In this document: positions 22,863 through 25,782 of the stretch, piece by piece
Layout of the letters: each line of letters begins with the position of its first letter
Numbering within the stretch: position 1 is the first letter of the stretch
Assembly (NCBI GenBank): GCA_913055585.1
Contig: CAJXKN010000003.1
Span: forward strand, 1-40,034
Direction: 5' to 3'
DNA length: 40,034 nt
From: an uncultured Caldisericota bacterium
Lineage (GTDB): Bacteria; Caldisericota; Caldisericia; Caldisericales; Caldisericaceae
The notes under the pieces: generated by a model
Seen by the model: only the letters and a program-made list of their open reading frames with translations
What the model was told of the DNA's origin: nothing
Databases searched by the model: none
Position numbers and translations under genes: made by a program

Positions 22863-22890
22863 TTGACAAAGTCCGAAACAGACATATAAT
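22863..22890 (+). promoter_or_regulatory. Sigma70-type promoter upstream of the structured leader and methyltransferase
   Basis: TTGACA 22863-22868, 16 nt spacer, TATAAT 22885-22890. Confidence 0.85.
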
Positions 22891-22896
22891 GCTTTA

Positions 22897-23012
22897 AAGG
22901 TTTTGCCCTGGCTCTGTCCTATGTCCCCACAGTAAAAAGCCTTAGTAACCTTCAATCTGGTTGAATAGTGAAAAGGCGGGGAAGGGAAGAGTCGGGGCTA
23001 TTGCTTAAATAG
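22897..23012 (+). ncRNA. Candidate structured RNA leader or sRNA, family not recognised
   Basis: Nested helices: 22905-22914 GCCCTGGCTC with 22989-22998 GAGTCGGGGC; 22924-22928 TCCCC with 22978-22982 GGGGA; 22939-22943 GCCTT with 22973-22977 AAGGC; 22951-22955 TTCAA with 22961-22965 TTGAA. Confidence 0.6.
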
Positions 23013-24084: not shown

Positions 24085-24187
24085 GGAAAGGAATGCAGTA
24101 TGACATTGTTCAGAGTGACAAAAAATGCGTGCTAGAAAAAAACAGGGCTACAAAATGATATAGATTTTTGATGATTCAATTCGCCTC

Positions 24188-24215
24188 TTGACACAGAATA
24201 TAATTTTGTTATACT
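24188..24215 (+). promoter_or_regulatory. Sigma70-type promoter for an intergenic small RNA
   Basis: TTGACA 24188-24193, 16 nt spacer, TATACT 24210-24215. Confidence 0.75.
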
Positions 24216-24221
24216 ATTATC

Positions 24222-24316
24222 TCAATAGATGGGTATTTAGGACTAAATACCCGATACCTACCTCCTTTCTTATTCATGCCAGGGAAGATGTCCCCATCAT
24301 CTTCCCTTCTTTTTTT
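24222..24316 (+). ncRNA. Candidate small RNA with an anti-Shine-Dalgarno linker
   Basis: Downstream of the promoter: perfect 10-bp inverted repeat GGGTATTTAG-GA-CTAAATACCC (24231-24252), linker GATACCTACCTCCTTTCTTATTCATGCC (24253-24280), then a strong terminator. Confidence 0.65.
24281..24316 (+). terminator. Rho-independent terminator of the small RNA
   Basis: AGGGAAGATG-TCCCCAT-CATCTTCCCT followed by TCTTTTTTT. Confidence 0.88.
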
Positions 24317-24557
24317 AAATTTTGTTTTTTTGTATATAATGATTTGGGAGGTATAATATAAGTGTACCAGGAAAAGTTTGTAGTTTCTTATCGATTAAAG
24401 TCTTATATAGACAAATACAAACAGCTTATTGCTAAAACTGCATTTATGAAGGTAACGAAATAAATGAAGATAGCGGTATGGAGATATCAGGCTTTAAAAT
24501 ACAATAAGAACAAGAGTATATGGTAAATAAAAAGACTATTACAGGCCTAATAAGTAG

Positions 24558-24684: not shown

Positions 24685-25782
24685 ATGTCTAATAGACGTG
24701 AACTTTTACTTATTCCAGGCCCTACTCCTGTAAGTGATGAAGTGCTTCATGCTCTTTCTCAAAAAACAATATCCCATACGGATGAGCGGTTTGTAAAAGT
24801 TTTTGCAAAAGCTTTGGAAGAAATGCATCCATTTTTTGGAATGTCTCAAGGACAAACATTTATTATTTCCGGTTCTGGCACATTAGGAATGGAGATATCT
24901 TTATCAAACATTCTGAACGAAGGAGAATCTCTCCTTGTGGTATCGCACGGTTATTTTGGTGACAGATTTGCAGAAATAGGCAAAACACTCGGGCTCGATG
25001 TTGATATATTGAAAAGTAACACAGGGAAGACTATCCATGAAGATTCTTTGAAAGATTATCTTAATAGAAAAAAGTATGCTGCAATTACATTTACTCATGT
25101 GGACACATCCACCGGTGTAATTGCAGATATGGAAAAATTTAGTAAATTAGTTAAGAAAATTTCTCCAGATACTTTAATTGTTTTGGATGGTGTTTGTGCA
25201 ACAGGCGGCGTTCCAGAAGAAATGGATAAATGGGGAATTGATGTTATATTTACTGGCTCACAAAAAGCAATTGCAGTACCTCCTGGCCTTACAATGCTTG
25301 CTTTTTCCGAGCGTGCTCTTAAGAAACGCAGAAAAATGAAAAAAATGAGAACTTACTATGGAGATATACTGAGATGGATTCCCGTAATGAATGATCCTCA
25401 CAAATACTTTGCTACTCCTCCTGTAAATATGATCTTCGCTCTTGAGAAATCCCTAAGCACTATTATAGAAAAAGGCTTGAACAATTATTATGAAAAGCAC
25501 AGGAAACTTGCCAGGAAGGTAAGAACGGCTATGAAAGTATTTGGATTTGAGAATTTGCCCAGGGAAGAGGATGCTGCACCTACACTTTCGGTATTTTCCT
25601 ATCCTGCAGGTGTTGAAGATTTTAAATTTAGAACTGCTCTTAAGGAAAAAGGTGTTACTGTTGCAGGTGCATTAGGCAAATTAAAGGGAAAATACTTTAG
25701 AATGGGACATATGGGGAATATTACCGAGCAAGATATTGACCTTGCTTTGAAACTTATTGAAGAAGTTTTGAAAGAAAAATAA
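24685..25782 (+). CDS. Class V aminotransferase (alanine-glyoxylate/serine-pyruvate type)
   Basis: LLIPGPTPVSDEVLHALS, SGSGTLGMEISLSNIL, DGVCATGGVPEEMDKWGIDVIFTGSQKAIAVPPGLTMLAFS (PLP lysine SQKA), FRMGHMGNI. Confidence 0.95.
   Translation: MSNRRELLLIPGPTPVSDEVLHALSQKTISHTDERFVKVFAKALEEMHPFFGMSQGQTFIISGSGTLGMEISLSNILNEGESLLVVSHGYFGDRFAEIGKTLGLDVDILKSNTGKTIHEDSLKDYLNRKKYAAITFTHVDTSTGVIADMEKFSKLVKKISPDTLIVLDGVCATGGVPEEMDKWGIDVIFTGSQKAIAVPPGLTMLAFSERALKKRRKMKKMRTYYGDILRWIPVMNDPHKYFATPPVNMIFALEKSLSTIIEKGLNNYYEKHRKLARKVRTAMKVFGFENLPREEDAAPTLSVFSYPAGVEDFKFRTALKEKGVTVAGALGKLKGKYFRMGHMGNITEQDIDLALKLIEEVLKEK

Follow-up and report, generated by a model that had tools for sequence, protein, structure and literature searches.

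A conserved candidate small RNA of the Caldisericaceae with an exposed anti-Shine-Dalgarno linker and predicted targets in amino-acid metabolism

Trans-acting small RNAs that block Shine-Dalgarno (SD) sequences are a known kind of bacterial regulator. RsaE/RoxS of Staphylococcus and Bacillus binds the SD through an exposed pyrimidine motif and controls a metabolic regulon; the C-rich regions of RoxS act on central-metabolism mRNAs (PMC8216469). AbcR1 and AbcR2 (alpha-r15) of Sinorhizobium and its relatives repress transport and metabolic mRNAs by means of 8-nt anti-SD motifs, one of which is placed between two stem-loops in an ultraconserved stretch (PMC8844928). In Staphylococcus aureus, a C-rich region of RsaI base-pairs with the SD of the glcU_2 and fn3K mRNAs, and this RNA, which also binds other small RNAs, is tied to carbon metabolism (PMC9266662, PMC8216469).

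The DNA analysed here (the window, a contig of 40,034 bases from a 1.29-Mb assembly that is 75% complete) contains a locus resembling each of these systems. With RsaE/RoxS it shares an exposed pyrimidine-rich stretch that could bind the SD and a predicted metabolic regulon, with AbcR1/AbcR2 an anti-SD motif between two stem-loops, and with RsaI a C-rich SD-pairing region and a metabolic link. The differences are equally clear. The RsaE motif is UCCC, whereas the RNA described here has a near-invariant linker of 25 nt with predicted two-part pairings of up to 22 nt, and it has no covariance-model relation to RsaE/RoxS. AbcR1/AbcR2 are alphaproteobacterial and carry two motifs per RNA (CUCCUCCC and UUCCCCUC), and RsaI has other targets. 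The initial annotation had recognised no known RNA at this position, and indeed an Rfam cmscan with 4227 families, run on the window and seven homologous loci, gave no match at the RNA. Judging by analogy, the RNA would work like RsaE and AbcR1 but be unrelated to both; on sequence comparison, it is a new small RNA family of the Caldisericaceae. The literature searched contained no paper on small RNAs of Caldisericum. The features of the locus are the following:

24163..24184, forward strand: conserved box GATTTTTGATGATTCAATTCGC just 5' of the -35, possible activator or UP-type site of the window's copy
24188..24215, forward strand: promoter TTGACA-16-TATACT, 11/12 matches, with TG before the second hexamer
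24222..24316, forward strand: predicted small RNA of about 95 nt (5' end placed by means of the promoter and 3' end by means of the terminator)
24231..24252, forward strand: 5' hairpin seen in the fold, variable in sequence with pairing kept (two-sided changes at 4 of 10 pairs among homologues)
24253..24280, forward strand: single-stranded linker, unpaired in the fold, predicted mRNA-binding region
24257..24281, forward strand: near-invariant core of 25 nt, CCTACCTCCTTTCTTATTCATGCCA
24260..24270, forward strand: 16S-like string ACCTCCTTTCT, inside the core
24273..24280, forward strand: address segment TTCATGCC, inside the core
24281..24316, forward strand: intrinsic terminator (C-rich loop, T run), its stem kept among homologues

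An RNA gene of this kind, about 95 nt long and with a regulatory role in this family of heat-loving Caldisericota, is very probably real. The promoter proposed in the initial annotation is of sigma-70 type and has an equivalent in all 11 homologues, each with 11-12 of 12 matches to TTGAC(A/T)-N16/17-TATA(A/C)T; these promoters lie 39-46 nt 5' of the core and their spacer sequences differ. The hairpin that follows had been described as a perfect one of 10 bp. It does form, but its minimum free energy structure has 9 bp around a 4-nt loop, a tenth pair leaving a loop of only 2 nt. The 28 nucleotides between the two hairpins are predicted to be unpaired, as had been supposed, with probabilities mostly above 0.8 in the thermodynamic ensemble, and the terminator has a stem of 10 pairs (24281-24307) and then a T run (24310-24316). 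The RNA has a fold z-score of -3.4, with 0/200 shuffles as stable, and seven homologues folded singly reach -4.7 to -7.4. Taken at sequence level, the locus has the make-up of an independent gene with its own promoter and intrinsic terminator.

The annotation had also seen no open reading frame inside the locus. Strictly, a TTG-started frame of 57 codons (24188-24361) overlaps it, starting inside the -35 box, and the conserved core contains an ATG (ATGCCAGGG), both of which could be taken to indicate a short coding gene. The comparison of relatives does not look like that of a coding sequence: the hairpin and the terminator loop contain insertions and deletions, no frame is kept where the loop length shifts between homologues, the ATG is without a preceding SD, and the conserved bases track the helices and the linker rather than codons. 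We reject this explanation as highly improbable.

The family was sampled with 18 genomes in 9 genera, and the RNA is present in 11 of them, representing 8 genera. The linker and terminator are found by blastn in other genera, mostly with 86-95% identity over that part, and a pattern search locates the 25-nt core in eleven genomes, ten of them with an exact match and one (G008) with a single change. A covariance model built from the 11 copies recovers the same 11; the window's sequence, itself a member of the model, scores 98.7 bits. Hairpin and linker, whose conservation the annotation proposed to test, are both kept in the relatives. Between genera the sequence of the 5' hairpin diverges strongly, yet the hairpin always forms. 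In the alignment, five pairs have changed on both sides, and 87% of the cells are paired, against 31-53% for slid structures; the count of paired changes is lowered by a row (G003) that is misaligned in helix 1. In the terminator stem, one pair shows two-sided change and three show one-sided change. One genus does not have the RNA in any of its five genomes, four of which are at least 80% complete, and the two other genomes without a match are incomplete (55% and 77%). The covariance model also gives two weak matches outside the family (G035 and G052, E-values of 7e-5 and 3e-4), treated as chance; one resembles the antisense of a ribosome-binding site, and in the other the similarity is limited to a short stretch. 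The exact linker pattern is absent from the viral contigs searched. A group II intron match downstream of the RNA (E-value 0.17) is below the gathering score and was set aside, and the mobile-element remnants suspected in this region play no role in any of the findings.

In the window's genome, the RNA lies between a methyltransferase gene and an aminotransferase gene; the nearest named relatives of the latter are in Caldisericota and Caldisericum assemblies, with 72 to 55% identity. A hairpin and then a terminator placed 5' of this aminotransferase gene (24685-25782) are also what a cis-acting leader or attenuator would contain. However, the gene starts about 370 nt away and is replaced by others in other genera: in four of them the RNA adjoins what seems to be the same ABC-transporter gene, convergent and on the opposite strand, and in three it is 5' of a lipoprotein-like gene. 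Because the flanking genes differ between genera, the RNA is independent of its neighbours. This comparison contradicts the attenuator explanation, which we rejected as barely credible.

The annotation had pointed out that the linker copies the 3' tail of 16S rRNA. The window's own assembly contains no 16S gene; in the complete genome of a relative, G007 (1,558,103 bases), which is probably Caldisericum exile and has its copy of the RNA in the region 953077-953168, the 16S rRNA has the 3' end CCTGGATCACCTCCTTTCTAAGG, confirming the 11-nt identity for that genome. In the window, ACCTCCTTTCT occurs only at 24260-24270, considering both strands. The string alone is unremarkable: G007 has about 50 copies of CCTCCTTTC, most of them antisense to ribosome-binding sites. 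It is the placement inside a conserved RNA that exceeds chance. A tandem repeat of seven copies at 104-bp spacing in the same genome (1360094-1360718) also includes a sequence resembling the antisense of an SD.

Identity to the 16S tail would be expected of a general anti-SD decoy or 16S-tail mimic, which would bind any SD weakly, or bind a protein that recognises the 16S tail, and have no specific regulon; a functional linker of that type should be conserved as well. Against this, the flanking bases (CCT before the anti-SD string and TATTCATGCCA after it) are equally invariant, and the best target matches in G007 are lost when they are shuffled. We consider such a decoy improbable. The flanks, UUCAUGCC and CCUACC, are as invariant as the anti-SD string and able to pair beside an SD, which suggests that the RNA addresses particular mRNAs. 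The linker is an exposed, conserved seed complementary to SD regions, and it is like 16S rRNA because each of the two RNAs complements the SD. The original idea of an anti-SD copy therefore holds for the SD-complementary part, but the linker is more than a simple copy.

At two loci, one in G007 and one in G011, the strand opposite an mRNA leader matches the linker. Both are the start of a pyridoxal phosphate (PLP) aminotransferase gene (TATAATATAATGGCATGAATAAGAAAGGAGGTCAAAACCTTAAAATG), with an exact complement of the linker that is 22 nt long in G007 and 21 nt long in G011. In G007, 1,590 genes were called with a simple method and the linker duplex was computed against every leader. The top leaders belong mostly to amino-acid catabolic genes. 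The eight best include those of the aminotransferase, a sarcosine-oxidase-like dehydrogenase, a peptidase of the beta-aspartyl-peptidase/asparaginase type, the alpha subunit of indolepyruvate:ferredoxin oxidoreductase, an NADP glutamate dehydrogenase and L-threonine 3-dehydrogenase. Names were assigned with NCBIfam; for the aminotransferase, the peptidase and the sarcosine-oxidase-like protein the scores fall short of the curated cut-offs, which leaves the exact substrates of these three uncertain. Beside an SD-like stretch, five of these six leaders have GGCATGA(A/T) and the sixth GGCATAA. The remaining two of the top eight (406967 and 596612) are without the motif and may be chance matches. 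The linker is accessible, and once folding costs are included the predicted interaction energies are about -28 to -34 kcal/mol. When the anti-SD core was kept fixed and its flanks were shuffled, 0/160 shuffled linkers equalled the real one at ranks 2-10 and 1/160 did so at rank 1; ranks 2-10 also beat all 86 pseudo-linkers taken from antisense leaders, which are poorer in G+C. The leader complementarity in G007 is therefore beyond chance. A k-mer test showed mild enrichment of GGCATGAA 5' of the starts in this genome (4 seen, 0.3 expected), consistent with a small regulon. G007 also has three genes within 8 kb (87363, 90944 and 94638) with near-identical leaders, CCATGGCTTAAATTAATAAAAGAAAGGAGGTGA, seemingly a repeated leader.

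Within the genus Caldisericum, the GGCATGA-SD arrangement persists against a background of changing bases. The motif is retained in the leaders of threonine dehydrogenase in four species, of the asparaginase-type gene in three, of the aminotransferase and the sarcosine-oxidase-like gene in two each, and of the indolepyruvate oxidoreductase alpha subunit in three, with a weaker form in a fourth. Outside Caldisericum, the GGCATGA stretch is missing from the asparaginase-type and indolepyruvate oxidoreductase leaders, implying that targets differ between genera. In three further genera, it is the leader of pckA, encoding the ATP-type phosphoenolpyruvate carboxykinase, that carries the arrangement (TGGCATGAATAAGgtaagAAAGGAG in G001, TGGCaaATGAATAAGAAAGGAG in G005, TGGCATGAAcagAGAAAGGGG in G004 and TGGCATGAAatAGAGAAAGGGG in G009). 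Both halves are kept in these leaders and insertions at the joint vary, as expected of a bulged RNA duplex.

For the window's own organism, the target scan covered 0.64 Mb and 648 genes, about half of the genome. Here the pckA leader pairs poorly with the linker. The longest perfect complement among the 648 leaders, 15 nt (AAAGGAGGTAGGTAT), is located 5' of an asparaginase-type gene, and only 0.5% of shuffles reach 15 nt or more. This gene is the probable orthologue of a Caldisericum target, pairing in a shifted register. Over the same half genome, duplex energies overall are no better than those of shuffled linkers, so the regulon in this organism is a candidate one. Sequence support for a metabolic regulon is good in Caldisericum and partial elsewhere; the target prediction proposed with the annotation has thus given a positive result in the relative and a non-significant one for the energies in the window's own genome.

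In several leaders the GGCATGA-type stretch starts about 5-7 nt past a -10-like box and likely marks the 5' end of the mRNA. This position, with GGCATGAA at about +1 of several promoters and adjoining the predicted transcription start, is one that a DNA-binding repressor could in principle use. GGCATGAA might then be a transcription-factor operator where amino-acid genes start, and the complementary stretch in the RNA gene an unrelated second use or an autoregulatory operator. In the RNA gene, however, the stretch is on the other strand, about 60 nt 3' of the promoter and directly beside the anti-SD, in the order expected for pairing; it belongs to a single-stranded and near-invariant linker, and the variable joint in the pckA leaders suits a bulged RNA duplex better than an operator. 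We judge the operator explanation unlikely, slightly more so than the decoy.

The computations support the gene, its structure, its conservation and its complementarity to leaders. We propose, with a probability of roughly 0.78, that the RNA acts in trans, blocking SDs, to repress amino-acid catabolism and gluconeogenesis; its transcription, the repressive direction of its effect, its physiological role and an inducing signal are what we infer beyond these. Transcription of the RNA would start from its own promoter and stop at its own terminator, and its two hairpins would expose the 28-nt pyrimidine-rich linker. In the linker, 5'-UUCAUGCC-3' would pair with the GGCAUGA(A) stretch at or near the mRNA 5' end, and CCUACCUCCUUUCUU with the SD and the bases around it. 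In the predicted duplexes the SD is covered, and in the window's own asparaginase-type leader so are the first two nucleotides of the start codon; judging from RsaE, AbcR1 and RsaI, such pairing should block 30S binding and so repress translation, perhaps with decay of the mRNA. Direct SD binding through an exposed linker in the manner of RsaE/RoxS, as first suggested for this locus, fits both the wide conservation and the extended leader complementarity in the relative. Targets would mainly be enzymes of amino-acid fermentation in Caldisericum and ATP-type phosphoenolpyruvate carboxykinase in three other genera, the best candidate in the window's organism being the asparaginase-type peptidase.

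A tblastn search of G007 with Escherichia coli and Bacillus subtilis Hfq (approximate sequences) gave no credible match, the best E-value being 0.4, and a simple tblastn search did not find CsrA in this genome. More tentatively, at somewhat less than even odds, the RNA could be a family-wide and apparently Hfq-independent master riboregulator of amino-acid fermentation and gluconeogenesis, whose targets are tagged at the mRNA 5' end by GGCAUGAA at about +1 followed by the SD, the tag having moved between genes of the same metabolism across genera while the linker stayed frozen. A frozen linker with changing targets offers a way to ask how a small RNA regulon rewires. The gene and a candidate regulon are now available in an isolated thermophile, and they would add an independent example, beside RsaE in staphylococci, of an anti-SD RNA with a link to the breakdown of amino acids.

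Elsewhere in the window (22863-23010), a promoter that matches the consensus perfectly (TTGACA-16-TATAAT) precedes a long, imperfect hairpin containing an internal bulge (z-score -3.1). It is reminiscent of 6S RNA, with no Rfam match and no blastn match among the loci compared. The box GATTTTTGATGATTCAATTCGC preceding the small RNA promoter possibly is an activator site or a promoter-linked repeat. The window's genome contains 17 sites with at most two mismatches from TTGATGATTCAATTCGC, most of them directly 5' of promoter-like sequence, against 0 for the reversed pattern. The box adjoins the -35 of many promoters in this genome, and the genes downstream are unrelated (a secreted protein, a GspH-like pseudopilin, an ABC transporter ATPase and others); partial matches to it are also present in three other genomes (G002, G003 and G016).
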